Shown here: positions 3,384 to 18,749 of the stretch, in pieces
Numbering within the stretch: the stretch's first letter is position 1
How the letters are laid out: each line of letters opens with the position of its first letter
Assembly: GCF_009903625.1 (NCBI RefSeq)
Contig: NZ_CP047569.1
Location: 144,001 to 208,000, forward strand
Length of the DNA: 64,000 nt
Reading direction: 5' to 3'
Source: Microbulbifer sp. ALW1
Lineage (GTDB): Bacteria > Pseudomonadota > Gammaproteobacteria > Pseudomonadales > Cellvibrionaceae
The notes under the pieces: generated by a model
What the model was told of the DNA's origin: nothing
Databases searched by the model: none
The model's input: the letters and a program-made list of their open reading frames with translations, nothing else
Position numbers and translations under genes: made by a program

Positions 3384-6326
3384 TCAGAAGTTAGCGCGCA
3401 GCCCCAGTGCGTAGCGGGCACCGAACTCCTGAGCACTGATCAGCTGATTGCTGAAGCGACCATGTTGACGGAAGTCTTCACCTGTCAGGTTCAAGCCTTC
3501 GAGGAATACGGTCATATTGTCGGAGATCTCGTAGCTGGCGCTCAGGTCCCACTGGCCATAGGCTTCGGTGAACACCGGCTCATCCGGAGCGCGCAACTGA
3601 TCGGTAGATGCGAGGAAGTCATCACGCCAGTTGTAAGCGAGTCGCGCCTGGAAGCCATTCTTGTCATAGAAGCCCACCAGGTTGTAGGAATCGCTCAGAC
3701 CGTTCAGTGCCAGCTGTTCTGCGGTTTCAAATACGTCGTATTCCAGGTCGCCGTCGACCAGGGTAGCGTTCGCCTGAAGACCGAACCCGCTGTCACCCAG
3801 CATGTGCTGTACCGCAAGCTCGAATCCCTGAACGTGGGAGTCGCCCTTGTTTACCGGTGTGGTGATCAGCCAGTTGATTTCCGGAGAGTTGGCAATCACC
3901 GTGCCATCACAGGCGGGTACATCTTCACCATTGAGGCCGCAGGTATTGCCGTTGATGCCCACATCACCGCGGCTCGGGTCGGTATAGGCTACGCCATCGG
4001 CGTTGTACAGCAGTCCGGACGTGGTATCTGCAGACACATAGTTATCCACAAACTTCTGGAAGTGGTTGACAGAAACGTAGCTGCCGTCTGCGTAGTACCA
4101 CTCCAGCGCCAGGTCCAGGTTATCCGCCAGATAGGGTTTCAGGTCTGCATTACCCTGATAGGCGAGATAGGGGCCACTGGGACGACTGTTGGCGATGCTT
4201 ACTGCCGGGCGCAGTGCGGTCAGGTCGGTACGCGTCATGGTGCGACCGATGGAGGCGCGTGCGACCACCTCTTCGGTAATATCCAGGCGAACATCCAGGC
4301 TTGGCAGGAAATAGGCGTAGTCGCCATCCAGCTCGGTTACACCGTAAACCAGATCCTCACTGAACTGCGGACGCAGTTCGGTCAGGCTTTCATAACGCAG
4401 CGCGTAAGGCGTCACCTGGCGGGTTTCACCGGTCACATCGGTCGCCTCGTAGCGTAAGCCGGCAACCATGGTCAGTGGCATCTGCGCAATTTCAGTTTCA
4501 AAATTAAACTGCGAATAAGCAGAAGTGCTCTGTTCGGTGACGGTGTTGTACACCTCCGGGTTGAAGGTAAAACCAAACTCATCGCCGATCTGGTCGTACA
4601 TGGATTTCACGTCGAACTTGAGGAAGTACGGGAAGAGCGCTTCATTGCCACTAAAGGCACTGCCGGTACCGGCGCTACTGATCAGCGACAGCTGATCGAC
4701 AGATGGGTTCCAGGCGCGACCGAGGGTGGTCATGTTCATGCGCCAGGTCGTATCGAATTCGAAATCGACATAGCCGATACCAAACTGGGCAGACTTCAGC
4801 ATGCTGTCGTTGCTGTTCACCCAGTTGAAATCGAGTTTGGCCTGGTCGATGGTATTCAACACTTCATTGCCGCGGCCGATCACCAGGTTGCCACCAACAC
4901 TGGCAAGGTCGTACTGCTCCCCTTTGGTAGCACCGTCATAGAGGTAGTGCACGTTGCCATCGAACCCGAACGCATTCATGGATGCCGGGTCGTTCAGGAT
5001 CGGCAGCTGGGTACCCTGCCCGTAGTCGATGGTGAACTGGCCCGCATAACACTGCTCATAGGTCGCGCAGTAAAAATCCGCGTTACTCAGCAGAATGGAC
5101 TTTTCCGACAGGTTGCCGTCGGGCTGCGCGTGGGAGGTGGAGTGATGAATATCAAATTTGGCGCTGAGATTTTCGCTCAGGTCCCACTCCAGGTTGAAAC
5201 CGATGGATTCATTTTCGGTTTCCAGTTCATCGATGTAGCCGATGTAGTCGGTACCGCCGGCACCATTGACGATCTGTGCGATGGAACCATTTTCATCGGT
5301 GGAACCACTTACCCAGTTACCAAACCAGTGTGCGGTCTGGTAGCGCTCGATATCGTCCTGATAGCTCGAATAGAAGTAATCCAGACTGGCAACCGCTGCA
5401 TCGCTGATCGCGTACTGAACCACTACCTGGGCGTTATCACGCGCGCGCTCGTGGTGGCTCTGGTCCATGTTGTAGTTCTGCGGCATCCAGATGGTGCCAC
5501 CGGGGTTATTGCTGCGGTTGATCGCGGAATCGTCAATCGCTCCGCCGCCACAGGCGTCGGTGGAGGTGCTGAATCCAAGTTCACAGTTGCCTGCAGTCTG
5601 GCGCAGCCAGCCATCGGTCGCGATAATTTCCTGCGAGCTGTCACGCTGGGAGTGGGACAGTGCCGCAAGCACACCCAGTTTGCCGTCGAACAGCTGAGTG
5701 GAGAACATACCGGAAACTTCCGGCGTAAAGTCGTCACCCTGTACGTTGGTGGTGTCGCTATTGGTCTTTACGCTGAATGCAGATTTAAAGCCATCGTAAT
5801 CAAATGGCTTGGCGGTGCGCACATTCACGGTCGCGCCGATACCGCCGGATGCCTGCTCGGCACGCGCGGTTTTGTAAACATCAACACCCACCACAGATTC
5901 CGGGGCAATCTGCTCAAAGTTGAAGCTGCGGTTCTGGGTGCCGCCAGCACCTTCCTGCTTGGGGGAGTCCGCAAACGGCATATTGCGGCCATTCAGGGTT
6001 ACAAGGTTAAAGTTGGGACCAAAACCGCGCACGGTTATCTGGTTACCTTCGCCATTTTTACGGTCAATGGACACACCACTGATACGCTGCAGGGATTCCG
6101 CCAGGTTGGTATCAGGGAACTTACCGATGTCTTCTGCGGAAATGGCATCCACAACACCGTTGGCATCGCGCTTGATGTCGGCGGCTTTTTGCAGTGAACC
6201 GCGGATACCGGTTACCACAATCTCTTCCATCGCCTCGACACCGTCCTGCGCCAGTACGGCACCGGAGTTCACCATCGCAATTGAGATCACCAGGGGCTTC
6301 AGGCCCAAAGTAGTCTTTCTCATCAT
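3384..6326 (-). CDS. TonB-dependent outer-membrane receptor (TIGR01782-like), xylose regulon
   Basis: The product has about 980 residues. It starts MMRKTTLGLKPLVISIAMVN with a cleavable signal peptide ending near VLAQ. The start at 6326 is set by GGAGG seven nt upstream; the longest frame begins 14 codons earlier without a good site. The plug domain shows EEIVVTGIRGSL, then LAESLQRISGVSIDR and QITVRGFGPNFNLVTLNG, the pattern of the large Xanthomonas/Caulobacter-type receptors that import oligosaccharides. The barrel ends with the aromatic terminus ALGLRANF. Two copies of the xylose-regulon palindrome lie 71 and 305 nt upstream, so it probably takes up xylan-derived oligosaccharides. The ligand is inferred, not visible. 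Confidence 0.9.
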   Translation of the reverse strand: MMRKTTLGLKPLVISIAMVNSGAVLAQDGVEAMEEIVVTGIRGSLQKAADIKRDANGVVDAISAEDIGKFPDTNLAESLQRISGVSIDRKNGEGNQITVRGFGPNFNLVTLNGRNMPFADSPKQEGAGGTQNRSFNFEQIAPESVVGVDVYKTARAEQASGGIGATVNVRTAKPFDYDGFKSAFSVKTNSDTTNVQGDDFTPEVSGMFSTQLFDGKLGVLAALSHSQRDSSQEIIATDGWLRQTAGNCELGFSTSTDACGGGAIDDSAINRSNNPGGTIWMPQNYNMDQSHHERARDNAQVVVQYAISDAAVASLDYFYSSYQDDIERYQTAHWFGNWVSGSTDENGSIAQIVNGAGGTDYIGYIDELETENESIGFNLEWDLSENLSAKFDIHHSTSHAQPDGNLSEKSILLSNADFYCATYEQCYAGQFTIDYGQGTQLPILNDPASMNAFGFDGNVHYLYDGATKGEQYDLASVGGNLVIGRGNEVLNTIDQAKLDFNWVNSNDSMLKSAQFGIGYVDFEFDTTWRMNMTTLGRAWNPSVDQLSLISSAGTGSAFSGNEALFPYFLKFDVKSMYDQIGDEFGFTFNPEVYNTVTEQSTSAYSQFNFETEIAQMPLTMVAGLRYEATDVTGETRQVTPYALRYESLTELRPQFSEDLVYGVTELDGDYAYFLPSLDVRLDITEEVVARASIGRTMTRTDLTALRPAVSIANSRPSGPYLAYQGNADLKPYLADNLDLALEWYYADGSYVSVNHFQKFVDNYVSADTTSGLLYNADGVAYTDPSRGDVGINGNTCGLNGEDVPACDGTVIANSPEINWLITTPVNKGDSHVQGFELAVQHMLGDSGFGLQANATLVDGDLEYDVFETAEQLALNGLSDSYNLVGFYDKNGFQARLAYNWRDDFLASTDQLRAPDEPVFTEAYGQWDLSASYEISDNMTVFLEGLNLTGEDFRQHGRFSNQLISAQEFGARYALGLRANF

Positions 6327-6396
6327 TATTATGCCTCCCGAATAGGCTTTATTGTTTAAGAGTACCACCCTTTAACAAGGGCGTAATTTGCGCCAA

Positions 6397-6414
6397 AATG
6401 AAAACGTTTACATT
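6397..6414. promoter_or_regulatory. LacI-type operator, proximal to TonB receptor
   Basis: The sequence AATGAAAACGTTTACATT differs at one position from the perfect palindrome found between the SDR and LacI genes. It lies 71 nt upstream of the receptor start. Confidence 0.75.
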
Positions 6415-6630: not shown

Positions 6631-6648
6631 AATGTAAACGTTTACAAC
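6631..6648. promoter_or_regulatory. LacI-type operator, distal to TonB receptor
   Basis: AATGTAAACGTTTACAAC matches 16 of 18 positions of the palindrome. Its start is 234 bp from the start of the proximal site, a distance compatible with a repression loop if the regulator is tetrameric. Confidence 0.72.
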
Positions 6649-6915: not shown

Positions 6916-6948
6916 AAAAAGCGCCCCGGAGCAGTACTCCGGGGCGCT
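6916..6948 (-). terminator. Intrinsic terminator of the cytochrome gene
   Basis: AGCGCCCCGGAG pairs with CTCCGGGGCGCT around a short loop (6920-6948), with an A-run on the plus strand at 6916-6920 giving the U-tract for minus-strand transcription from the cytochrome gene. Confidence 0.85.
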
Positions 6949-7000: not shown

Positions 7001-9850
7001 TTACAGTGTCTCGATAAAGGCCTTCACCGCAGAGCGCTGGGCGCTACTCAGGTTGTTGTAGGCTCCCCGCGCACTGGCTGCATCACCGCCGTGTCGCTGG
7101 ATCGCATTTTCCAGGCTGGTCGATGCCCCATCGTGCATGAACAGGAGGGCGCGACCATTTTTCTCCAGCATGCGGATGTTGTGCCCCAGCCCCCAGAGTG
7201 GTGGCGTGCGGAAATCGCCATCACCCAGATCCCAGACTTTCATGTCGGTGTAGGGCCGCAGGGTCAGGTTGCGCAGGTGCGTAGGTGCATCACTGCGGGT
7301 CTTCTGCACCGGCGTATGGCAACCTGCGCAGCCAACCTGATTGAACAGCACATCGCCCTGCGCCACACCGGGCAAGTCGTAGCTGCCGGGGTTTCGCGCC
7401 GGCACCGTCAGCACCTCGGTGTAGGTGGTCAGCAACTCGAGCACGCGCCCGGGAAGCGCGTCCGGATCGACACCGTGGTCTGCCACCAGCGCATTCCGCA
7501 CCTGATCGGCAACGGTGTTTGCGGAGCCATCCCAGCTGAATCCCGCTTCACGCCCCTCAATCATTTCCAGTAGTTTCACACCATAGGTGGGTGGCGGCAG
7601 GCGCGGCCCTTTTGCGGTCTGGATGATTTCAGAGCCGCGGCCGTCCCGGAAGTGGCAGTCACCGCAGCTGCGGCTACCTATTTTCACTTCATCAAAATCG
7701 GTCGAGCCCTGCTTGTTGGGATCAATGCCGTGGAACAGATGGTGCCCCAGCAAGAAGTCATCCACCATATCCTCGGAGTGCAGAGTAGTGACCGGCTGGG
7801 TAAAGATCGCGTTGTACTCCAGGTGCGAGTAGGTTCCATTGTCCGACAGAATCATGCTGGTTGTGGCTTTACCGGCGGGATTCAATCGAGGGTCACCATA
7901 GTTTCCCCAACCCAGGCCTACGGTGTAGTAAGAAAAATCGTTGTAGGTCTGGGCACCGGTATTGCCCGCCACTGCAGAAATTTCAAACTGGATTACCTGG
8001 CCATAGGAATATACGCCGCCGAAACCGGGGTTCTGGGTCAGCGCAAAAAACTGCTGGCCATTGGGGCCGCCGGCGGTATTGCGCATGGATTCATTGCGAA
8101 TAACGTTGCCATCCACATCAAAGCCCACCTGCACATTGCCCGGCGTGTCGTCGATCCAGATGTTGTAGCGATCCAGGTTACGCAGCAGGTCATTATTGTG
8201 CTGGGCGTCCAGAATTGCCGCGGTGGTTCCGTCGTGGGAAACCGGATGCCGGAAACGCATCCAGTTGGCAGAGCCATCGGTAAACGCCGGGTAATTGTGC
8301 GGATCAACGCGACTGCCTTCAGTGGTAAAGAATCCAGTCCAGATCCACTGGTGCGCCGGGTTATTATTCAGCGAGTGGCTCGGGTGCAGGTAACGGAAAA
8401 AGTAATTGTAATTACCACTACAGGGAATAGCGGCACTACCCCCGCTGACGGCGACTTTCTTGAAGGTCGCGTTATCGTCCTCGGAGCAGTGCATCTCCAG
8501 GCCGGAATCGCCATTGCCTTTGACGATTTGCGGCCCCCAACGCCAACTCAGCTGGCCGTTTTGGATATCAAAGGCAAAACCGTGGGAGGTGGGTGCCGCG
8601 CCATTGATCGGCGTGCGCAGAGCGGCAGGTGCGTTAGCGCGCGGCGGCGGACCGACCTGATGATTGGTCAGGGAATTACTGGTCCAGTCCAGGTGCGCAA
8701 AATCCGGATCGCCCGGATTTTCAGGCTCGTCGGGATTACCAGTGCCGGAGCCATCCCAGGTAAACGTGTACTTGGGAAAATCACTGGCAGACATCCCCGG
8801 CACTTTCAGCTGGGCGGTGTAAGTCTGGCCGGCAACAAGATTGTTATGCAGCCGCTCCCAGCGACCGTCGACCAGCTCCGCGGTGTAACACTCGGCCTCC
8901 AGGTCCTTACAGTTGTAGAAGGTACCGCTCGTAGGCCAACCGGGCTGCGCCTTGAACGAATAAACGGCGGCGTTGCTGCCACTGGCAACCACGGCAAAGT
9001 CATCGCCCGCGGGGTTCTCCGGTGCGGAGGCGACCTCCACAAAGCGACTGGCCTGCGCACTGTCGTTGTCGTTGTCGGTGGCAACCACGCGCAAACCGTA
9101 ACTGCCCGCCTCCAGGTCATTCAAGGTCCAGCTGTAGGGGGTATTACTCACGATACCGGCCGACACTTCACTGCCAGTACCCGGTGCGGAGTAAAACAAC
9201 TCCAGAAAGCTGACATTGCCGTCGCTGTCGCTGGCCACGGCCGCAACACTCATACTGCCACCGGCGACAAGCTCACCTTGCGGGTCGTTGAGGGAGACAT
9301 TCGGAGGCAGATTGCCGCCTGCCCCGGAGCTAGAGCCGGAACCGGAACTCGAGCCGCTCGAACTGGAGCTGCTTCCGGAAGAACCTCCCGAACTCGAGGA
9401 GGAGCTCGACGAAGAACTGGAGGAACTCGACGAGCTGGAAGAACTCGAGGAACCAGAGGAAGCGAACGAGAAAACCACCGTTTCCATCGGGGAGATATAC
9501 TGCCCGGTCGCGTTGTCCTGTACTTTCAACTGAATCTGGTATTGATTGCCGTCAACCAGTCCGCTGACCGGTCGCTGCCACTGGCCATTCTGGAGACTGC
9601 CGGCAACGCAATTGCTCCCAAGGCAGACATAGTTCCAGCTGCCGGACCAACCCTGGTCGTCAAAGTAAATGACACCATCGCTACTGCTGGTTGCCTGAAT
9701 ACCCGAAGCGGCGTATGACGTTAGTGGCGCACCACACAGCAGTGCTGCTACTGCAACGCTCGCTTTAATTTCACGAGTAAATGGGATTTTTTTTGCACAC
9801 GCCGATACGCGTGCCGCCGGGCCGCGAGCCCGGGCAAGGATCTTTTTCAT
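7001..9850 (-). CDS. Secreted modular di-haem c-type cytochrome with poly-Ser tether
   Basis: The 949-residue protein starts MKKILARARGPAARVSACAK with a long basic signal region and a hydrophobic core ending near TSYAA (about residue 48). Next come a ~75-residue domain with paired Cys and conserved Trp (YVCLGSNCVAG, QLKV), a poly-Ser/Gly stretch (about 131-178), an Ig-like domain (about 180-272), and a second copy of the first domain (about 283-370; FYNCKDLEAECYTA, QLKV). The C-terminal half carries two haem-c motifs, CGDCH (729-733) and CAGCH (841-845), in a frame resembling the di-haem oxidoreductase (DHOR) family. The part at about 385-700 I do not recognise. A LacI-type operator lies 220 nt upstream. 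It is probably exported, binds a polysaccharide and carries electrons, perhaps to an oxidase or lytic monooxygenase. That role is inference; the CBM label rests only on domain style. Confidence 0.75.
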   Translation of the reverse strand: MKKILARARGPAARVSACAKKIPFTREIKASVAVAALLCGAPLTSYAASGIQATSSSDGVIYFDDQGWSGSWNYVCLGSNCVAGSLQNGQWQRPVSGLVDGNQYQIQLKVQDNATGQYISPMETVVFSFASSGSSSSSSSSSSSSSSSSSSSSSGGSSGSSSSSSGSSSGSGSSSGAGGNLPPNVSLNDPQGELVAGGSMSVAAVASDSDGNVSFLELFYSAPGTGSEVSAGIVSNTPYSWTLNDLEAGSYGLRVVATDNDNDSAQASRFVEVASAPENPAGDDFAVVASGSNAAVYSFKAQPGWPTSGTFYNCKDLEAECYTAELVDGRWERLHNNLVAGQTYTAQLKVPGMSASDFPKYTFTWDGSGTGNPDEPENPGDPDFAHLDWTSNSLTNHQVGPPPRANAPAALRTPINGAAPTSHGFAFDIQNGQLSWRWGPQIVKGNGDSGLEMHCSEDDNATFKKVAVSGGSAAIPCSGNYNYFFRYLHPSHSLNNNPAHQWIWTGFFTTEGSRVDPHNYPAFTDGSANWMRFRHPVSHDGTTAAILDAQHNNDLLRNLDRYNIWIDDTPGNVQVGFDVDGNVIRNESMRNTAGGPNGQQFFALTQNPGFGGVYSYGQVIQFEISAVAGNTGAQTYNDFSYYTVGLGWGNYGDPRLNPAGKATTSMILSDNGTYSHLEYNAIFTQPVTTLHSEDMVDDFLLGHHLFHGIDPNKQGSTDFDEVKIGSRSCGDCHFRDGRGSEIIQTAKGPRLPPPTYGVKLLEMIEGREAGFSWDGSANTVADQVRNALVADHGVDPDALPGRVLELLTTYTEVLTVPARNPGSYDLPGVAQGDVLFNQVGCAGCHTPVQKTRSDAPTHLRNLTLRPYTDMKVWDLGDGDFRTPPLWGLGHNIRMLEKNGRALLFMHDGASTSLENAIQRHGGDAASARGAYNNLSSAQRSAVKAFIETL

Positions 9851-9915: not shown

Positions 9916-9949
9916 AAAAAAAACGGCACCCGGGCCAGCCCGGGTACCG
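9916..9949 (-). terminator. Terminator-like hairpin in the leader of the cytochrome gene
   Basis: A 12-bp stem with one mismatch (CGGTACCCGGGC / GCCCGGGTGCCG on the minus strand) is followed directly by eight U residues, 66 nt upstream of the cytochrome start. It lies downstream of the operator at 10070, so it is either the SDR terminator with a hidden promoter after it or an attenuator. Confidence 0.7.
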
Positions 9950-10069
9950 CAATCGACGAAACACCATCCTGTGAAAAATTCTGAATTCCGCGCTTCCAGT
10001 GTTCACCAGAAGTTTCGGTCAGCTGGCGCAGCGTGTTCGCGGGTTACCGGACTATTGACGCTACGCTCA

Positions 10070-10087
10070 AATGTAATCGTTTACAAC
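10070..10087. promoter_or_regulatory. LacI-type operator upstream of cytochrome gene
   Basis: AATGTAATCGTTTACAAC matches 15 of 18 positions of the regulon palindrome, including the central CGTTTACA. Confidence 0.65.
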
Positions 10088-10245: not shown

Positions 10246-11013
10246 TCAGTAGGGCCAATTTGCTTTTGAAAAAACGCCACCATCCACCCACAGCGTTTGC
10301 CCGGTAACAAAGGACGCGCGCGGGTCTGCCAGGTAAATCACGGCGTTGGCAATATCCGCGGGCACCCCTACCCTGCCGAGAGGAGCAATATCACCCCAGA
10401 CTTTTTCATAGTCCGGGGCTTCCTCTCGGGTCCGATCAATCAAAATGCCACCGGGAGCTACGCAGTTTACGCGGATGCCATGTGGACCAAGCTCTACTGC
10501 TGCAGACTTGGTCAGCATCTCTATACCGCCCTTGGATGCGGCGTAATCCACCAGATTGGGGAAGGCCAGCTTGTTGCAGCCACTGCCGATATTCACAATG
10601 CTGCCGTTTACCGCGTTTTCCACCATCATGCGCGCACCTAGCTGGAGATTAAGAAAAGCACCCTTCAGGTTTGTGCGGATTACCCGGTCCCAATCCTCTT
10701 CCTGCAATTCCAGTAGCGGCGCCCAGGTCTGGACCCCGGCGTTATTCACGATGAGGTTTGGCGCACAACCAAAATGCTCGCGTACGCGAATATAAAACCC
10801 CTGTACTTGTGCCTTGTCACCCACATCACAGGGGGAGAAGAAGCACTGCTTACCCAGCTGCGCACACTCCCATATCAGTGACTGCGCCTGCGCGTCGTCG
10901 CGCAGATTATTCACCGCAATATCCCAGCCTTCGGCGGCCAGCTGCAGTGCTATTTCACGGCCTATTCCGGCAGATCCCCCGGTGACCACCGCGAGCTTCT
11001 TGTCACTATTCAT
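10246..11013 (-). CDS. SDR-family dehydrogenase, probable D-xylose 1-dehydrogenase
   Basis: This classical short-chain dehydrogenase has 255 residues. It shows the nucleotide motif TGGSAGIG near the N-terminus, NNAG after the fourth strand, the active-site Ser in NIGSGC, and the catalytic pair in YAASKGG. The longest frame runs back to 11907, but the fold begins at MNSDKKLAVVTGG, so I place the start at 11013. The gene is divergent from the LacI-type regulator, with a perfect operator between them. NAD(P)-dependent oxidation of D-xylose to xylonolactone would fill the first step of the nearby pathway, as the SDR XylB does in Caulobacter. An L-arabinose or other aldose activity cannot be excluded. 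Confidence 0.82.
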   Translation of the reverse strand: MNSDKKLAVVTGGSAGIGREIALQLAAEGWDIAVNNLRDDAQAQSLIWECAQLGKQCFFSPCDVGDKAQVQGFYIRVREHFGCAPNLIVNNAGVQTWAPLLELQEEDWDRVIRTNLKGAFLNLQLGARMMVENAVNGSIVNIGSGCNKLAFPNLVDYAASKGGIEMLTKSAAVELGPHGIRVNCVAPGGILIDRTREEAPDYEKVWGDIAPLGRVGVPADIANAVIYLADPRASFVTGQTLWVDGGVFSKANWPY

Positions 11014-11132
11014 TGATCCATTTCCACAATCACCAGGAAGATCGCGCCCAAAGCGCGACACGCGAGGCGAACCGCAATGTGAGATCGCCTGGCCTCTCGG
11101 GGCACCAACGCCGTGGAACCCTATCGAAGCAA

Positions 11133-11150
11133 AATGTAAACGTTTACATT
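11133..11150. promoter_or_regulatory. Perfect LacI-type operator between SDR and regulator genes
   Basis: AATGTAAACGTTTACATT is a perfect 18-bp palindrome centred between the divergent SDR (start 11013) and LacI-type (start 11365) genes, so it can control both. The central CG step is typical of LacI/GalR operators. Confidence 0.85.
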
Positions 11151-11364
11151 TTGGCTTGCAACCGGAACCTCGAAAAATCATGCATCGGCAGAGTGCCTCG
11201 GCATTTTCGTTCTGTGAAAGCACAACAGATACCAATTTCACCGTGCAAACGTTACCATTCTGCCTTTGCACGCTGCACGACAACCCCGCAAACGCTCGTC
11301 TACACCGCGTTAACCCAAGGCCAGAGCAGCAAAGCGCCAGACAAAACCAACAACAGGTATTCCG

Positions 11365-12384
11365 GTGTCCATCAAAAAAGTTGCGAAGCTCGCCGGCGTG
11401 TCTACCGCCACAGTTTCCCGTTACCTCAACAATCCCGAGCAGGTAAAAGAGCGCACGCGCCTCAAGGTACAGTCGGCCATCGACGAGACCGGCTACGCCC
11501 CCAACACCCTCGCGCGCAACTTTCGCCGCGGCCGCACCAGCCTGATCGTTGTCGTGCTGCCGACGGTGGGTGACCCGTTCCTGGAGAATGTGATGCGGGG
11601 TATCTGGCAGGTGGCCGACGAACAGGGCTACAGCATCCTGATCCGGGACACCCAGTCCAATTCCCACGGGTTCGATGAATATTCGGATATGGTGTTTTCC
11701 AAGCAGGCCGATGGGATTCTGCTGCTTGCGAGTATTTCTCCGTTTGATGAGCCCACCGGTAAACCCAAGGCCAGCAACAAGGCTCACCCGCCCATCGTGC
11801 TCGGTCTGGAAAGTGTGACCTCCGAGTTGAACCAGTTTCCCAGCGTGCGTGTGGATAATGTTGCCGCCGCCGCCGACGGCACCCACTACCTGATACAACT
11901 GGGGCACCAGCGCATTGGCTTTATTGCGGGCAAACGCAATTCACTGCTGACCCACGACCGCGAAAAGGGCTACCGCAAGGCCATGCGCAAGGCCAAGCTG
12001 CCGGTGGCCAACGGCTGGGTTGTTGAAGGGGAACAGACGCTCGATGGTGCCCGCCGCGCCACCCGCCGCCTGCTGTCCCACAAGGAACGCCCCACCGCAA
12101 TTTTCTGCGCAAACGATGAAATGGCACTGGGTGCAATGCACGAAATCAAATCTGCCTGTTTGAAAGTGCCGGAAGATATTTCCGTAATCGGGTTTGACGA
12201 TATCCGCTATGCCGAGATTATGGATCCGCCGCTCACCACCATCGCGCAGCCCGCGGAAGAAATTGGCGAGCGCACCATGCGCCGCCTGTGTCAGGCCATT
12301 GAAGGTAGCGATGCCGACAATGAAGCGGAAATTGTTCCGCATAAATTAATCGTGCGTAAGTCCACCGCGAACGCGCCGCGCTAG
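11365..12384 (+). CDS. LacI/GalR-family repressor of the xylose regulon
   Basis: The product has 339 residues from a GTG start with AGG seven nt upstream. The N-terminal helix-turn-helix and hinge read SIKKVAKLAGVSTATVSRYL then GYAPNTLARNFRRG; the remainder is a periplasmic-binding-protein-like effector domain (SVIGFDDIRYAEIMDPPLTT near the C-terminus). Family members bind CG-centred palindromes and release on sugar binding. Five such palindromes occur only around the xylose genes here, one of them in this gene's own upstream region, which implies autoregulation. The Weimberg-pathway regulator of Caulobacter (XylR) is of the same family. The effector, probably xylose or a pathway intermediate, is inferred. 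Confidence 0.88.
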   Translation: MSIKKVAKLAGVSTATVSRYLNNPEQVKERTRLKVQSAIDETGYAPNTLARNFRRGRTSLIVVVLPTVGDPFLENVMRGIWQVADEQGYSILIRDTQSNSHGFDEYSDMVFSKQADGILLLASISPFDEPTGKPKASNKAHPPIVLGLESVTSELNQFPSVRVDNVAAAADGTHYLIQLGHQRIGFIAGKRNSLLTHDREKGYRKAMRKAKLPVANGWVVEGEQTLDGARRATRRLLSHKERPTAIFCANDEMALGAMHEIKSACLKVPEDISVIGFDDIRYAEIMDPPLTTIAQPAEEIGERTMRRLCQAIEGSDADNEAEIVPHKLIVRKSTANAPR

Positions 12385-12575
12385 CTTCCCTCTGGCGGTG
12401 CTGGATAACCAGCACCGCTACTTTTCCTTACTTGTCCTCACATTTGCCGGCAGCCGGCGCCACAATTCCAAGCGACGCGCCTGTTTCCTCCACGTCGCTT
12501 CCACAACGTCCCATCCACAACGCCGCTTCCACAACACAGCCTCTGTAAAACTTCCTCCACCAAACATCGTTGCAA

Positions 12576-12593
12576 AATGTAAACGTTTACATT
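12576..12593. promoter_or_regulatory. LacI-type operator upstream of the lactonase operon
   Basis: AATGTAAACGTTTACATT, identical to the perfect site at 11133, lies 52 nt before the lactonase start codon. The 260 bp between the regulator and lactonase genes holds nothing else I can identify. Confidence 0.85.
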
Positions 12594-12645
12594 AGGCTGA
12601 GTTTATTCGATTAATTCAGTCCGCCAGAGCACAGGCACGCCAGTA

Positions 12646-13581
12646 ATGGACAGCAGCAAAAAAATAACAACCGCCAGCAACAGTGTAAAAAACATTGCGC
12701 AAGACCGAGTGCACTGCGTATGGGATGCCGGCGCCACCCTGGGTGAAGGCCCCTGCTGGGTCGCGCGTGAACAGGCGATTTACTGGGTTGATATCAATCA
12801 GTTTCAATTGCACCGCCTGTGCACTGTCACCGACCAGCGCCGCAGCTGGCATATTGCCGATCAAATCACGGCACTGGCACCACGCAGAAACGGCGGCTTT
12901 ATTGCCACCCTGCGCGATGGTTTTGCCTTGCTGGAAATTCCACAGCTGGGCGACAGGGTTCATATCAAAAAACTCGGCGGGCCGGAAAAAGACCTCGCCG
13001 GTAATCGCTTTAACGACGGCAAGGCAGACAGCAAAGGACGTTTCTGGGCGGGCAGTATGGACGACTCGGAATTGAATCCCACCGGTGCACTCTACCGGCT
13101 CGACAGTGATTGCCGTTGGTTGAAGATGGATGACCATTACATCATCACCAATGGACCAGCCTTCAGTCCCGACGGACACACCCTGTATCACACCGATACC
13201 CTGGGGAAAGTCATCTACGCGTTTGACCTGACGGCAGACGGACGCATCGGAAACAAGCGGGAATTTTTCCGCTTTGACGGCAGCAGCGGCTTTCCCGATG
13301 GCATGACGGTGGACGAAGAAGGCTGCCTGTGGGTGTGTCATTTTGCCGGCTGGGGGATTACCCGCATTTCCCCCAGAGGAAATATCGTCGGTCGTATCGA
13401 ATTACCGGTGGCCAACGTCACCAGTTGCACATTTGCCGGCGACAAACTGGACACCCTGTATATCACCACGGCGCGCAAAGGGCTCAACCACGAACAACTC
13501 GCACAACAACCGCTAGCGGGCGGGCTATTCCGGGTCGAACCGGGTGTTCGGGGAATCGCGCCCGGAATTTTTTCCGGTTGA
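12646..13581 (+). CDS. SMP-30/gluconolactonase-family sugar lactonase (xylonolactonase)
   Basis: This six-bladed beta-propeller lactonase has 311 residues. Metal-binding signatures of the SMP-30 family are visible: the N-terminal Glu in LGEGPCW, the Asn in NRFNDGKADSKGRFWAGSM, the Asn in ITNGPAFSPDG and the Asp in GFPDGMTVDEEGCLWVCHF. The enzyme hydrolyses an aldonolactone to the open acid in the cytoplasm. It heads a plus-strand operon with the FAH-family dehydratase and the aldehyde dehydrogenase, and an exact LacI-type operator lies just upstream. Xylono-1,4-lactone is the expected substrate from pathway context, as for XylC of Caulobacter. Confidence 0.87.
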   Translation: MDSSKKITTASNSVKNIAQDRVHCVWDAGATLGEGPCWVAREQAIYWVDINQFQLHRLCTVTDQRRSWHIADQITALAPRRNGGFIATLRDGFALLEIPQLGDRVHIKKLGGPEKDLAGNRFNDGKADSKGRFWAGSMDDSELNPTGALYRLDSDCRWLKMDDHYIITNGPAFSPDGHTLYHTDTLGKVIYAFDLTADGRIGNKREFFRFDGSSGFPDGMTVDEEGCLWVCHFAGWGITRISPRGNIVGRIELPVANVTSCTFAGDKLDTLYITTARKGLNHEQLAQQPLAGGLFRVEPGVRGIAPGIFSG

Positions 13582-13622
13582 AAAAACTCGTTGAAAACCA
13601 ATCATTGCTAGTGACCAGAATC

Positions 13623-14825
13623 ATGAATAAATCACTTTCCATTGACGATCTTTTACCGGCAGACGGTACCCGCGGCACCCTGGTCGGGCGGGCCTGGATC
13701 CCGGCCGCTCGCAGCCAGAATAAAGTGGCGGGGCCGAGCCCTATTCTGGTGGCAGAAGACGGCGTCTTTGACCTCAGCGCCATTGCTCCAACCTTTGCCG
13801 AACTGGTCAACAGCGGTTTTGACCGCACTCAGCTGGACCCCAGCAAGCTGCGCTACCTGTGCCAGACCGAAGACCTGTTTCACAACAGTCACAGCGATGC
13901 GCCGGACAGCGAGCTGCCCCACCTGCTGGCCCCCGTTGATCTACAGGCAATAAAAGCCTGCGGGGTTACGTTTATGTGCAGCATGCTCGAGCGCATTATC
14001 GAAGAGCGCGCGGGGGGCGACAGCGCCCGCGCCGCCGGCATTCGCGCGCAGATTTCGTCAATGATCGGTGGCGAACAGCGCGACCTTTCCGATATCAAAC
14101 CGGGTTCAAAGGAAGCGGATGCGCTGAAAACTGTATTGCAACAGGAAGGCCTGTGGTCGCAGTACCTGGAAGTCGGCATCGGCCCCTACGCGGAAGTCTT
14201 CACCAAGTCCCAGGTTCTTTCCGCCGTCGGCAGCGGTCACCAAGTGGGCGTATTGCCTTTCTCCGAATGGAACAACCCCGAGCCGGAAATCGTGTTGCTG
14301 GTCAATAATCGTGGCACGGTGATTGGCGCTACCCTGGGCAACGATGTAAACCTGCGGGATATCGAAGGCCGCAGCGCACTGCTGCTGGGCAAGGCCAAGG
14401 ACAACAACGCCTCCTGCGCAATTGGCCCCCTGGTGCGCCTATTCGACCAGACTTTCACCCTGGACGATGTACGCACTGCCGAAGTCACCCTGAATATCCG
14501 CGGCGACGATGGTTTTGCGCTGAACGAGGTCAGCCCAATGACCGCCATCAGTCGCGACATACTCGACCTGGTGGGCCAGACCTTTAACGAAAACCACCAG
14601 TATCCCGACGGCATCGCCCTGTTCACCGGCACCCTGTTTGCACCGACCCAGGACCGCGATCACCTAGGGCAGGGATTCACCCACAAGCTCGGCGACACCG
14701 TCACCATTGCCACCCCCAAACTGGGAGCACTGGTCAACACAGTGACCCATACCAACAAAGCCCCCCAATGGGAGTTTGGCATTTCCGCGCTGATGAAAAA
14801 TCTCAGCCAGCGCGGGCTGCTTTAA
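13623..14825 (+). CDS. xylX: FAH-family 2-keto-3-deoxy-D-xylonate dehydratase (XylX-like)
   Basis: The protein has 400 residues and belongs to the fumarylacetoacetate hydrolase superfamily. The C-terminal FAH fold shows the metal-binding pattern NNPEPEIVLLVN, GNDVNLRDIEGRSALLLGKA and KDNNASCAIGP. It begins 41 nt after the lactonase gene. In the Weimberg pathway the FAH-type enzyme XylX removes water from 2-keto-3-deoxy-D-xylonate to give 2-oxoglutarate semialdehyde. The L-arabinose branch normally uses a dihydrodipicolinate-synthase-like enzyme at this step, so finding an FAH enzyme argues for D-xylose. The ORF can be extended upstream to 13329, but that part overlaps the lactonase and is not family-like. 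Confidence 0.85.
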   Translation: MNKSLSIDDLLPADGTRGTLVGRAWIPAARSQNKVAGPSPILVAEDGVFDLSAIAPTFAELVNSGFDRTQLDPSKLRYLCQTEDLFHNSHSDAPDSELPHLLAPVDLQAIKACGVTFMCSMLERIIEERAGGDSARAAGIRAQISSMIGGEQRDLSDIKPGSKEADALKTVLQQEGLWSQYLEVGIGPYAEVFTKSQVLSAVGSGHQVGVLPFSEWNNPEPEIVLLVNNRGTVIGATLGNDVNLRDIEGRSALLLGKAKDNNASCAIGPLVRLFDQTFTLDDVRTAEVTLNIRGDDGFALNEVSPMTAISRDILDLVGQTFNENHQYPDGIALFTGTLFAPTQDRDHLGQGFTHKLGDTVTIATPKLGALVNTVTHTNKAPQWEFGISALMKNLSQRGLL

Positions 14826-14917
14826 TCATTCATCGCAAGGGTGCAACCAGCCTCGCCGAGACGCGATGGCTTGACCGTACCTTGTCTCGATCCAGGGATT
14901 GTTTACAGGACATCACC

Positions 14918-16354
14918 ATGACCATCAAAAAAAATTACATTGCCGGCGAATGGGTGGAGGGCTGCGGCACAAGCCACAATATCAACCCGGCAGATACCAG
15001 CGACGTCATCGCCGAATACGCAACCGCCGACGCTGAGCAGACCAAGGCCGCCATCGCGGCTGCCCGCGGCGCCTTCCCAAGCTGGTCGCTCTCTGGCATT
15101 CAGCTGCGCAGTGAATTGCTCGACCGTATCGGGCAGCTCATCCTCGAGCGCAAACAGGCGCTCGGTGAACTGCTGGCCCGCGAAGAAGGCAAATCACTAC
15201 CCGAGGCCATCGGCGAAGTGGGCCGTGCCGGGCAAATTTTCAAATACTTTTCCGGGGAGGTTTTGCAGCTGCGCGGCGAAATCCAGCCCTCGGTGCGCCC
15301 CGGCCTGGAAGCGAGCGTCACCCGCGAAGCGCTCGGCGTCATCGGCCTGATCACGCCGTGGAATTTCCCGATCGCCATTCCCGCCTGGAAGATTGCCCCG
15401 GCCCTTGCCTACGGCAACTGTGTGGTATTCAAACCCGCCGAACTGGTGCCCGGCAGCGCCCACGCACTGGCAGAGATCATCGCCGAGGCCGGCGTTCCCG
15501 CCGGCGTCTTCAACCTGATCATGGGACCCGGCCGCGTAGTTGGTGACACCCTGGTCAATGATGCGCGGGTCGATGGCATCAGCTTTACCGGCTCGGTCAA
15601 CACCGGGCGCAATATTGCCGCCGCCGCGGTCGGGCGCATGGCCAAAGTGCAGCTGGAAATGGGCGGGAAAAACCCATTGGTAGTCCTCGACGACGCCGAT
15701 CTCGATACCGCCGTGGAATGCGCCATCAACGGCGCCTTCTTCTCTACCGGGCAACGCTGCACCGCCTCCAGCCGGCTGATCGTCACCGAAGGTATTCACG
15801 ACCGCTTTATAGAGGCGATGATCGATCGACTGAAGACCCTCAAGGTAGGCAACCCGCTCGATGCCGGCACCCATATCGGCCCGGTGGTGGACGAGCGGCA
15901 ACTGCGACAGAACCTGGAGTATGTCGAGATCGCGAAGACGGAAGGCGGCAACCTGGTATTCGGCGGCGGCCGGCTGCAGCTGGAAACCGATGGCTTTTTC
16001 CAGCAGCCGGCGCTGTTTATCAACACCACCCCCGAAATGCGAATTAACCGTGAGGAAGTCTTCGGGCCGGTAGCCAGCGTGATCCGGGCGCGCGACTACG
16101 CCCACGCCCTGGAACTGGCCAACGACACCGAGTTCGGCCTTTCTGCGGGCATCGTTACCCAGTCGCTGAAATACGCCACCCACTTCAAGCGGCATGCGCA
16201 GGCCGGCATGGTCATGGTGAATGTGCCCACCGCCGGCGTGGACTATCACGTTCCTTTTGGCGGTCGCAAGGGATCCAGCTACGGCGCGCGGGAACAGGGG
16301 AGCTATGCCCGCGAGTTTTACACTACAGTTAAAACAGCATACACATTGGCCTGA
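14918..16354 (+). CDS. Aldehyde dehydrogenase, 2-oxoglutarate semialdehyde dehydrogenase type
   Basis: The enzyme has 478 residues from the ATG at 14918, preceded by CAGGA; the longer frame from 14768 overlaps the dehydratase gene. Family signatures are LITPWNFPIAIPAWKIAPAL (cofactor domain), FTGSVNTGRNIA, the catalytic Glu in QLEMGGKNP and the catalytic Cys in STGQRCTASSRLIV, and the C-terminal PFGGRKGSS. It oxidises an aldehyde to an acid with NAD(P)+. Third in the operon after lactonase and dehydratase, it would convert 2-oxoglutarate semialdehyde to 2-oxoglutarate, the last step of the Weimberg pathway. The substrate is assigned by context and subfamily resemblance. Confidence 0.87.
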   Translation: MTIKKNYIAGEWVEGCGTSHNINPADTSDVIAEYATADAEQTKAAIAAARGAFPSWSLSGIQLRSELLDRIGQLILERKQALGELLAREEGKSLPEAIGEVGRAGQIFKYFSGEVLQLRGEIQPSVRPGLEASVTREALGVIGLITPWNFPIAIPAWKIAPALAYGNCVVFKPAELVPGSAHALAEIIAEAGVPAGVFNLIMGPGRVVGDTLVNDARVDGISFTGSVNTGRNIAAAAVGRMAKVQLEMGGKNPLVVLDDADLDTAVECAINGAFFSTGQRCTASSRLIVTEGIHDRFIEAMIDRLKTLKVGNPLDAGTHIGPVVDERQLRQNLEYVEIAKTEGGNLVFGGGRLQLETDGFFQQPALFINTTPEMRINREEVFGPVASVIRARDYAHALELANDTEFGLSAGIVTQSLKYATHFKRHAQAGMVMVNVPTAGVDYHVPFGGRKGSSYGAREQGSYAREFYTTVKTAYTLA

Positions 16355-16406
16355 ATTCCTCAGGCCGCGAGGGATTCGCGCGTATAACGCAGTCGAGGTC
16401 AACACC

Positions 16407-16586
16407 ATGAATACGCAGCTACCAGTCAACCCCCAGAGATCCGCCAAGCCAGCGATGCTGGCGGCACAGGAAAAGACCGACCAGCAGACGCAGAACCCGG
16501 ATGCCAAGACCGGTCGAAGTCGCGGAAATCTGGAGCTGCGTTATCCAAAAGAACTGGAACGCTGTTTTGTGCTCGGAAATAACTGA
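16407..16586 (+). CDS. Possible small protein, 59 residues, unknown
   Basis: A short frame starts MNTQLPVNPQRSAKPAML with GAGGT seven nt before the ATG, a good ribosome site, 52 nt after the aldehyde dehydrogenase. It ends ERCFVLGNN. It is hydrophilic, lacks a signal or membrane segment and I recognise no family. A terminator follows about 100 nt later, so it would be the last gene of the operon. It may equally be untranslated 3' sequence. Confidence 0.3.
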   Translation: MNTQLPVNPQRSAKPAMLAAQEKTDQQTQNPDAKTGRSRGNLELRYPKELERCFVLGNN

Positions 16587-16907
16587 TCACTGATACAGAT
16601 ACCGCCACAGATATTCATAGGTCTTGTGGCGGTCATCCATGACCGGTTTTCGTTGGACTCTTTTAGTGAGCTTTTTAGTTGGACTTTCCCCCGCTCCGGC
16701 GGGGATTTTTTCCAGGCGTGATCCGTCACAGTTAAAAGAACGCCCATAAGAGCAGTCGGTCGCTTTAAACTGTTTCAGTATAAGAACAGTCGCTTGATAA
16801 CCTGCCTGAATATTAAAAACCGCGCTCGGCCGATACCGGCAAAGCGCAGCAGTAATAGCATTAGCAACGAATAACAAAAACAACCGCGAGTAGCGCCCCA
16901 TACCCCC
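16587..16907. other. Intergenic region before xylonate dehydratase gene
   Basis: No convincing gene is seen. It contains a plus-strand terminator (16689-16711). No copy of the LacI-type palindrome is visible, so the downstream dehydratase may have a different promoter control. A 104-codon minus-strand frame here runs through the terminator hairpin and is not called. Confidence 0.5.
16689..16711 (+). terminator. Intrinsic terminator after lactonase operon
   Basis: The stem CCCCGC / GCGGGG with a TCCG loop is followed by ATTTTTT on the plus strand. It separates the lactonase-dehydratase-dehydrogenase operon from the xylonate dehydratase gene. Confidence 0.8.
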
Positions 16908-18749
16908 ATGAGCAATACAACTCCCAAATCATCCCGTATCTTCCGCAGCGCGCGCTGGTTCGACGACAAGGCCCATGCGGATCACACTGCCCTCTATCTG
17001 GAGCGTTACTTCAACTTCGGCCTCACCCGGGAAGAACTGCAGTCCGGCAAGCCGATTATCGGTATTGCCCAAACCGGCAGCGACCTGACCCCCTGCAATC
17101 GCCACCACAAGGAGCTGGCGCAGCGGGTAAAAGACGGCATCCGGGATGCCGGTGGCATCCCCATGGAATTTCCGGTGCACCCGATCTTCGAACAGGGGCG
17201 CCGCCCCACCGCCGCGCTGGATCGCAATCTCGCCACCCTGGGGCTGATCGAAATCCTGCACGGCTACCCGGTGGACGCCGTGGTGCTTACCACCGGTTGC
17301 GACAAAACCACGCCGGCCACCCTGATGGCCGCCTTGCAGCTGGATATCCCCGCCATCGTCTATTCCGGCGGCCCCATGCTAAATGGCTGGCGGCCCATCA
17401 GTTGCGAAGGAGATAGCGACAAACCCGAACCGCAGGCACACGAAGAGCGTGTCGGCTCCGGCACCGCTATCTGGCAAAACCGCGAACGGCTCGCAAAGGG
17501 TGAGTTGGACTACGCCGGCTTTATGGATGCCTCGGCAGAATCCGTGCCCAGTGTCGGCCATTGCAACACCATGGGCACGGCGCTTTCCATGAACGCACTG
17601 GCGGAAGTACTCGGCATGTCCCTGCCCGGCTGCGCCGCGATTCCGGCCCCCTACAAAGAGCGCGCGCAAATGGGTTACCACACCGGGCGGCGCATCGTGG
17701 AAATGGCTTTTGCAGACCTGAAACCGTCGGACATTCTCACCCGGCAGTCCTTCCTCAATGCGGTGGTCGCCTGCAGCGCACTGGGCGGCTCCACCAATGC
17801 GGTGGTACACCTGCTGGCGCTGGCCCGAGGGCTGAAAAACGTGGAACTGAGCATGGATGACTGGCAAGACTACGGCGAGAATATTCCCCTGCTGGTCAAC
17901 TGTATGCCCGCGGGGAAATACCTGGGGGAAGAGTTCTACCGTGCAGGTGGCGTCCCCGCCCTGTTGAATCAGCTGATCGCCGACGGCCTCATCGACGGCG
18001 AGCAGAACACCGTCACCGGCCAAAGCCTGGCCCATAACTGCCGCAGCTTCCGCGTGCGCAATCGCGACGTGATTTTCCCGACGGACAAACCGTTAATGGA
18101 AAAAGCCGGCTTCGCCATCATGCGCGGCAACTTCTTCGACTCGGCGCTGATGAAGAAGTCCGTCATCAATCCGGCATTCCGCCAAAAATACCTGCAGGAC
18201 TCCGAGCACCCGAACTGCTTTACCGCCCGCGCCATCGTCTTCGAAGGCCCCGAGGACTACCGCGCGCGCATTGACGACCCAGCCCTGGATATCGACGAGC
18301 ACTGTATGCTGGTGATCCGCAATGTAGGCCCGGTGGGTTACCCCGGTTCTGCGGAAGTGGTCAACATGCTGCCGCCCAAGCGGCTGGTCAAACAGGGCAT
18401 CAATTGCCTCCCCACCTTGGGTGATGGTCGCCAGAGCGGTACCTCGGGCAGTCCCTCGATCCTGCATATCTCCCCCGAGGCGGCCACCGGTGGCGGTATT
18501 GCCCTGTTGGAGACCGGTGACCGGATTCGCGTAGACCTCGGTAATCACCGGGTCGATGTGTTGCTGTCCGACGAAGCCCTGGCAGAGCGGCAACAGCAAC
18601 GAAAGGCGCCCGCCTTGGCCAACCAGACGCCCTGGCAGGAAATCTATCGCAAAACCGTGAGCCAGCTGGATACCGGGGCGGTAATGGAGACCGACGAACA
18701 GTTTGTGCGGATTCTCGATGCGCACCCGGTCGGGCGCCACTCGCATTAA
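16908..18749 (+). CDS. xylD: IlvD/Edd-family D-xylonate dehydratase (XylD-like)
   Basis: The product has 613 residues. Iron-sulfur cluster ligands and family motifs are visible: GIAQTGSDLTPCNRHH, LTTGCDKTTPATLMA, VPSVGHCNTMGTALSMNALA, GGSTNAVVHLLALA, LPTLGDGRQSGTSGSPSIL and the C-terminal TPWQEIYRKTVSQLDTGAV followed by a His-rich end. This closely follows the Caulobacter XylD pattern as I recall it, including length and tail. It dehydrates D-xylonate to 2-keto-3-deoxy-D-xylonate, the step between the lactonase and the FAH-family enzyme. It lies behind a terminator and has a weak ribosome site, so expression may be set separately. L-arabonate dehydratase activity is an alternative in this family. 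Confidence 0.88.
   Translation: MSNTTPKSSRIFRSARWFDDKAHADHTALYLERYFNFGLTREELQSGKPIIGIAQTGSDLTPCNRHHKELAQRVKDGIRDAGGIPMEFPVHPIFEQGRRPTAALDRNLATLGLIEILHGYPVDAVVLTTGCDKTTPATLMAALQLDIPAIVYSGGPMLNGWRPISCEGDSDKPEPQAHEERVGSGTAIWQNRERLAKGELDYAGFMDASAESVPSVGHCNTMGTALSMNALAEVLGMSLPGCAAIPAPYKERAQMGYHTGRRIVEMAFADLKPSDILTRQSFLNAVVACSALGGSTNAVVHLLALARGLKNVELSMDDWQDYGENIPLLVNCMPAGKYLGEEFYRAGGVPALLNQLIADGLIDGEQNTVTGQSLAHNCRSFRVRNRDVIFPTDKPLMEKAGFAIMRGNFFDSALMKKSVINPAFRQKYLQDSEHPNCFTARAIVFEGPEDYRARIDDPALDIDEHCMLVIRNVGPVGYPGSAEVVNMLPPKRLVKQGINCLPTLGDGRQSGTSGSPSILHISPEAATGGGIALLETGDRIRVDLGNHRVDVLLSDEALAERQQQRKAPALANQTPWQEIYRKTVSQLDTGAVMETDEQFVRILDAHPVGRHSH

Follow-up and report, generated by a model that had tools for sequence, protein, structure and literature searches.

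Architecture of the protein

The stretch of DNA analysed here (the window) covers positions 144001–208000, 64 kb in all, of the single-contig 4.68 Mb genome of Microbulbifer sp. ALW1, and the gene under study occupies positions 7001–9850 of it on the minus strand. Judged from its modules, the encoded 949-aa protein is secreted-looking, carbohydrate-anchored and di-haem, and it very probably belongs to a bacterial system that degrades β-1,3-xylan. From the N-terminus, it consists of a signal peptide, a carbohydrate-binding module (CBM) of family 31, a Ser tether, an immunoglobulin (Ig) domain, a CBM31-like repeat, an FN3-like domain, a β-domain and a di-haem domain of the type found in bacterial cytochrome c peroxidases (CCPs), MauG and the DHOR (di-haem oxidoreductase) family. 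Its features are as follows, in window positions.

7001..9850, minus strand: whole gene, 949-aa open reading frame (ORF) with ATG start
9710..9850, minus strand: signal peptide region, residues 1–47, read by eye
9488..9700, minus strand: CBM31, residues 51–121, from Pfam PF11606 and the structure match 2cov
9317..9460, minus strand: Ser-rich tether, residues 131–178, 38 of 48 residues being Ser
9026..9316, minus strand: bacterial Ig-like domain, residues 179–275, from the structure match 9kvu
8741..9004, minus strand: probable diverged CBM31-like repeat, residues 283–370, from alignment to copy 1
8315..8584, minus strand: FN3/Ig-like sandwich (tentative), residues 423–512
7781..8314, minus strand: conserved β-domain without a Pfam name, residues 513–690, with invariant residues
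7004..7780, minus strand: di-haem CCP/MauG/DHOR-type domain, residues 691–949
7652..7666, minus strand: haem c site 1, CGDCH, residues 729–733; C, C and H each 49/49
7475..7504, minus strand: Q783 to H792, with Q783 aligned with the Gln of bacterial CCPs
7316..7330, minus strand: haem c site 2, CAGCH, residues 841–845; C, C and H each 49/49
7091..7093, minus strand: H920, 49/49, aligned with the C-terminal Met of CCPs

The ATG of the ORF is preceded by the Shine-Dalgarno sequence AGGTGAG, and both start and Shine-Dalgarno sequence are also kept in M. mangrovi. The protein-database entry (P0002) is 750 aa in length and begins 199 codons downstream of this ATG. The closest named relative of the 949-aa protein (91%) comes from Microbulbifer agarilyticus.

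The first CBM31 copy is far above the Pfam cut-off (PF11606, E = 7e-17, 61.9 bits against 25) and matches the CBM31 of a β-1,3-xylanase (2cov) with an E-value of 3.2e-9. The repeat at residues 283–370, on which the Pfam scan makes no domain call, is 36% identical to copy 1 across 64 residues (E = 2e-8 in a single pairwise comparison), and since it can be aligned in this way it is probably a diverged CBM31 copy. A preliminary description of this DNA, made from its letters alone, had pointed out two ~75-residue Cys/Trp repeats, a Ser-rich tether and an Ig domain. The tether and the Ig domain are confirmed, the latter (residues ~179–265) by its match to the solved bacterial Ig domain 9kvu (E = 4.5e-7), and the repeats can now be named, with certainty from Pfam for the first copy only. 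Neither the Pfam GH26 family nor any solved GH26 structure (GH, glycoside hydrolase) gave a match to the 949-aa protein, and its Pfam list holds no AA10 (PF03067), YceI/X158 or DUF1587 domain.

The conserved C-terminal unit

Residues 380–949 form a single conserved unit of 570 residues that ends in the di-haem peroxidase-type domain. Across residues ~385–700 no Pfam family exceeds its cut-off, and a fold comparison of the β-domain (residues 513–690) gives no strong match. The suggestion that a new domain might lie here holds in so far as the β-domain is conserved and unnamed; it is not unique to this protein, since the central region is present in 49/49 aligned sequences. Asn529, Arg534, Pro536, Asp540 and Gly541 of the β-domain are each invariant (49/49) in the alignment of the unit.

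The DHOR-like character of the C-terminus, also claimed at first reading, is borne out by PF06537 (78.9 bits against a cut-off of 22), which covers only profile positions 323–499 of 499. PF03150 (CCP_MauG, 21.2 against 25.6) and the NCBIfam CCP model NF040606 (12.4 against 150) remain under their cut-offs on the 949-aa protein. The di-haem domain shows a CCP-type fold and profile match, with MauG among its fold relatives. The two CxxCH motifs lie exactly at the residues reported before, and at least two such motifs are found in 120/120 relatives listed.

The unit was aligned with the Nitrosomonas di-haem peroxidase (1iqc) and with E. coli Ccp, the latter in a profile alignment that took in 16 chosen relatives, near ones of low diversity. 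Both alignments pair Q783 with a Gln, and both pair H920 with a C-terminal Met; we take the Gln to be the pocket Gln and the Met to be the axial haem ligand of peroxidases. Candidate haem ligands in the unit are the pair H845/H920, and H733 with any partner among H703, H704, H707 and H792. Hence the axial Met expected on the C-terminal haem of bacterial CCPs is replaced by H920 in these alignments. Q783, D791 and H792 are conserved in 44/49, 46/49 and 49/49 sequences of the unit alignment, respectively, and the text pattern Q...DHG occurs in only 68/120 relatives listed. By eye D791-H792 resembles the Glu-Met next to this pocket in peroxidases, but the assignment was withdrawn, as the 1iqc alignment puts the Glu two residues later and the Ccp alignment puts a gap there. 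Compared with bacterial di-haem CCP, MauG and hydrazine synthase γ, the window protein differs in having His where CCP has the C-terminal Met and in the CBMs, FN3-like domain and β-domain added in front. In our reading the unit is redox-active, its chemistry is like that of peroxidases, and the surroundings of its haems are altered.

Association with β-1,3-xylanases

Because the repeated Cys/Trp domain is CBM31, which is known from β-1,3-xylanases, the target polymer is likely to be algal β-1,3-xylan and not ordinary xylan. The xylan-surface target of the preliminary description is thus retained as to carbohydrate anchoring and revised as to the polymer by CBM31 and the relatives described below. 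Plain β-1,4-xylan was set aside as the target on the strength of CBM31 and the GH26 partners.

The most informative relative is Xyn65 of Gilvimarinus xylanilyticus HB14 (WP_253968372.1), described in the available excerpt of its report as GH26-CBM31-CBM6-Big-DHOR (PMC9638140). According to the same excerpt, Xyn65 accounts for 82.3% of the 1,3-xylanase spectra in the secretome on 1,3-xylan, more than any other 1,3-xylanase; it cleaved only 1,3-xylan among four xylans, and its authors suggested that the DHOR domain might be an oxidoreductase of a new kind or else serve in binding or stabilisation (PMC9638140). The excerpt names pET22b in BL21(DE3) as the expression system and makes no mention of haem maturation (PMC9638140). 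The DHOR part of that preparation may therefore have lacked haem. Our locus set contains a 1673-aa protein (L017:6704-11722), the C-terminus of which is 71% identical to residues 380–949 of the window protein and the N-terminus of which matches the Xyl4 β-1,3-xylanase (2ddx, E = 2.4e-129). CBM31, Big and DHOR are above cut-off in it and CBM6 is below; its mass is 178.8 kDa as a whole and 176.0 kDa from residue 26, against the 176.6 given for Xyn65 in the excerpt. Since genome accession, domains and size agree, we identify this protein with Xyn65. It resembles the window protein in CBM31, an Ig-type domain and the 570-residue unit. In contrast, Xyn65 bears its own GH26 and one CBM31, whereas the window protein lacks GH26 and has a Ser tether and two modules of CBM31 type. 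A second DHOR protein is encoded in the Xyn65 locus, at L017:12231-15869.

A survey of 144 genomes of the bacterial family, with the unit called at E <= 1e-60 and the Xyn65 GH26 domain at E <= 1e-10, found the unit in 10/144 and a GH26 match in 18/144 genomes. All ten unit-bearing genomes have a GH26 match, compared with 8/134 of the others (nominal Fisher p = 5.7e-11, kinship ignored); some of the weaker matches could be other GH26 enzymes, for example that of G131 (best E = 8.6e-21). Unit and GH26 stand in one reading frame in 5/10 genomes (G077, G093, G094, G098 and G108), and each of the remaining unit-bearing genomes has one or more unit copies within ~10 kb of GH26 on the same contig. 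G108 alone holds five matches to the unit. In the genome of strain ALW1, a paralog of 1233 aa (P0122), 45% over most of the unit and encoded ~1 kb beyond the left edge of the window, lies 4 kb from GH26.

Among genomes reached through loci, GH26 was found in 29/34 unit-bearing ones, the five without it all being planctomycete records, versus 1/18 DHOR-only controls. The distant relatives L063 and L065 stand outside both sets; GH26 and AA10 are present in the genomes of both. Within the fetched loci themselves, GH26 is present in 24/51 core loci versus 0/20 controls, two of the controls (L066 and L067) being distant relatives with a CBM31-like N-terminus. Unit and GH26 share one ORF in six of these 24 loci; in a seventh, L057, the GH26 is accompanied only by a weak resemblance to the unit (30%). 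CBM31 was detected in 24/32 core proteins scanned, namely P0122 and 31 proteins of the 51 loci, some of them truncated where a contig ends.

Genomic neighbourhood and regulation

The genes and sites around the window gene are listed below.

3384..6368, minus strand: TonB-dependent receptor (TonB-Xanth-Caul type), with operators upstream at 6399-6412 and 6633-6646
6920..6948, minus strand: terminator-like hairpin downstream of the gene
9923..9950, minus strand: terminator-like hairpin between operator and ATG
10072..10085, plus strand: upstream LacI-type operator, with a single mismatch
10246..18749: putative oxidative-pentose-catabolism genes, namely SDR (minus strand), and SGL lactonase, FAA-like, aldehyde dehydrogenase and ILVD/EDD dehydratase (plus strand)
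11365..12384, plus strand: LacI-family regulator
L003:8084-9424: own GH26, outside the window

By their predicted products, the window-side genes fit oxidative pentose catabolism; an MFS sugar transporter and a GFO/IDH/MocA dehydrogenase are also encoded on this side. The LacI-type palindrome TGTAAACGTTTACA occurs at five sites in the window with at most two mismatches, against 0.10 expected. The upstream operator reported in the preliminary description is one of these, and M. mangrovi has a perfect palindrome at the aligned position. The operator is conserved, but so is a hairpin between it and the ATG, and direct LacI-operator control of the window gene is therefore likely rather than proven. 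The hairpin at 9923-9950 has a T-run and is kept in M. mangrovi, and could be an attenuator or the terminator of the upstream SDR gene. Induction by xylose is a plausible prediction. The gene does lie next to pentose-catabolism genes and a LacI operator.

The 18.5-kb stretch around P0122 also encodes a GH26 matching Xyl4, GH43, a PhyH-type oxygenase, GH1 and AraC-type regulators. A second, weak GH26-like ORF is found in the same locus (L003:1207-2583). The PhyH-type oxygenase (L003:9463-10176) recurs in 8/51 core loci, often alongside GH26, GH43, MFS and GFO. A transposase (DDE_Tnp_1_6) is located at 31886-33469 of the window on the minus strand.

Proposed role and alternatives

The fusion of close relatives of the catalytic half to β-1,3-xylanase suggests an oxidative route of wall breakdown, and we infer that glycan oxidation would be the simplest use of a di-haem domain in such a fusion. 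The best explanation as a whole, which we hold at slightly less than an even chance, is a secreted protein working within bacterial β-1,3-xylan degradation in the following way. The CBM31 modules would hold the protein on insoluble β-1,3-xylan, where one haem would react with H2O2 and the other, probably bis-His, would store the second oxidising equivalent, in the manner of CCP/MauG. Presentation of the substrate might be aided by the β-domain. Oxidation of the glycan, or of a component held firmly on it, would then give GH26 and GH43 access, and the products would enter through the neighbouring TonB receptor and be handled by the LacI-controlled pentose genes. That the window protein itself oxidises the glycan directly is a tentative proposal, with the greater chance lying against it.

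Several observations weigh against this explanation. Because the two automatic alignments do not place D791 on the catalytic Glu, the predicted peroxide pocket is only partly supported. The window gene itself lies ~16 kb from the GH26 gene, and the LacI operator was not found in the stretch of P0122. Five planctomycete genomes (L037, L038, L039, L040 and L050) carry the unit and have no match to the Xyn65 GH26, and the substrate may therefore differ in planctomycetes. A search of open-licence PMC brought up no published activity of such a domain, and hydrolysis is the sole activity described for Xyn65 in the excerpt of its report (PMC9638140).

Among the other explanations, the one to be taken most seriously, although unlikely, is a protective peroxidase that clears H2O2 from the algal surface or the vicinity of the hydrolases, with CBM31 doing no more than keeping it where the peroxide is. 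The CCP-type fold, the profile match and the alignment of Q783 with the CCP Gln would all suit such an enzyme. However, a pure scavenger needs neither a glycan-specific module nor an in-frame fusion to GH26, and neither its tight co-occurrence with one hydrolase nor several unit copies per genome, such as the five matches in G108, would be called for. Somewhat less probable again is the oxidation of a non-glycan wall component (a phenolic, a protein cross-link or a halogenated compound) associated with the β-1,3-glycan. MauG, a fold relative, oxidises a protein substrate, and a tryptophan halogenase adjoins the sister gene P0123 described below; the CBM and GH partners, on the other hand, indicate the glycan itself.

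The preliminary description had raised electron delivery, with lytic polysaccharide monooxygenases (LPMOs) in view. Electron donation to a copper LPMO, a role proposed for CBM-cytochromes such as Cbp2D, now appears improbable. Like Cbp2D of Cellvibrio japonicus (CBM2, X158, X183, X132), the window protein is a CBM-borne c-type haem protein of a polysaccharide degrader; as far as the excerpt of the report goes, CjX183 differs in being mono-haem and can reduce LPMOs (PMC8981238). The ALW1 genome does have one AA10 match (PF03067), but the gene is ~214 kb away. AA10 occurs in 17/34 core genomes versus 0/18 DHOR-only controls, a contrast that taken alone would speak for a link but that we read as a difference in lifestyle; it was not found in the other 17/34, some of which are drafts or metagenome-assembled genomes. 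Nor is there an AA10 match in G113. This Microbulbifer genome consists of one contig, has a completeness rating of 100% and carries a 91%-identical unit. Within the family, AA10 is present in 7/10 core genomes versus 83/134 others, hence not clearly commoner. Equally improbable is a non-catalytic, DHOR-derived domain for binding or stability, which is the alternative hypothesis of the Xyn65 authors (PMC9638140, excerpt). The presence of at least two CxxCH motifs in every one of the 120 listed relatives, together with many invariant residues, is unlike a degenerate domain.

A possible wider class of secreted-type DHOR proteins

Besides the window protein and P0122, the ALW1 genome encodes three further secreted-type DHOR proteins. 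One of them, P0123 (L087:9489-12266; genome 4575489-4578266), consists of F5/8C, CBM56, a Ser tether and DHOR, and its gene adjoins GH16, GH3, a tryptophan halogenase and a cupin-like gene. Of the 8000 proteins scored in a search with P0123, 6483 were returned. Among the 120 relatives listed, at least 10 bear GH16-type domains (PF00722, PF03935 or PF26113), and one of these is named GH16 β-glucanase. P0123 is therefore a candidate β-1,3-glucan counterpart of the window protein. Its family (CBM56/CBM32-type DHOR and GH16-DHOR) is likewise secreted-type, CBM-borne and adjoining or fused to an endo-hydrolase, but differs in its β-1,3-glucan-type partners and its haem-flanking motifs. A GHHxFH-type motif before haem 1 is present in 117/120 listed members of the window-protein clade and 0/120 of the P0123 family, whereas HDMG shows the reverse (0/120 and 119/120), and the position of D791-H792 is D-M in the P0123 family. 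The pattern YTDLLLHDMG before RTxPLWGLG, characteristic of the DHOR branch of P0123 type, is absent from the window protein.

A direct comparison of the β-domains of the window unit and the P0123 family gave no match. Nevertheless, the family of the β-domain at 513–690 matches that of L063-L067 (hhalign E = 2.9e-5, probability 74%), which in turn matches the P0123 family (hhalign E = 3.4e-21), and the two appear distantly related through this transitive link. The CBM31/GH26 and CBM56/GH16 associations indicate that two related DHOR clades each travel, partly, with an endo-hydrolase of a β-1,3-polymer, and perhaps they form a wider class that acts on β-1,3-glycans. In its fullest form this idea, that secreted di-haem enzymes, targeted by CBMs and free of copper, make up a class of their own that oxidises β-1,3-polysaccharides with H2O2, with the CBM31/GH26 clade for xylan and the CBM56/GH16 clade for glucan, is speculative and on balance unlikely.

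Oxidative breakdown of polysaccharides has been described chiefly for copper LPMOs, which act on cellulose, chitin and a small number of other polymers. No LPMO is known to act on β-1,3-xylan or β-1,3-glucan, wall polymers of algae and fungi. If the proposal is true, a new auxiliary-activity family would exist for these two polymers, and a haem-based oxidative partner of hydrolases would alter models of algal carbon turnover and offer a new means of processing seaweed. Among the open-licence PMC matches listed, only the Xyn65 paper (PMC9638140) joins DHOR with xylan and none deals with GH16-DHOR fusions; of 13 papers that contain both terms, it is by title the only one about a DHOR domain. The term DHOR does not appear in the main text of PMC12542752. 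What is new here is a CBM31-targeted DHOR protein without its own xylanase, with evidence of class membership, by which the open remark on DHOR in the Xyn65 paper becomes a testable class-wide prediction.

The two remaining secreted-type proteins are tandem F5/8C-DHOR proteins (L086:8099-10606 and L086:10734-13787), with no glycosidase among three nearby ORFs scanned. L063-L067 form a third, intermediate DHOR clade, of which L066 and L067 (Aliagarivorans) start CBM31-like when read by eye. PF03640, a secreted repeat of unknown function, was found in 14/32 core proteins, including that encoded at L003:13284-16985, and also in some P0123-family proteins; it is possibly a redox partner domain.

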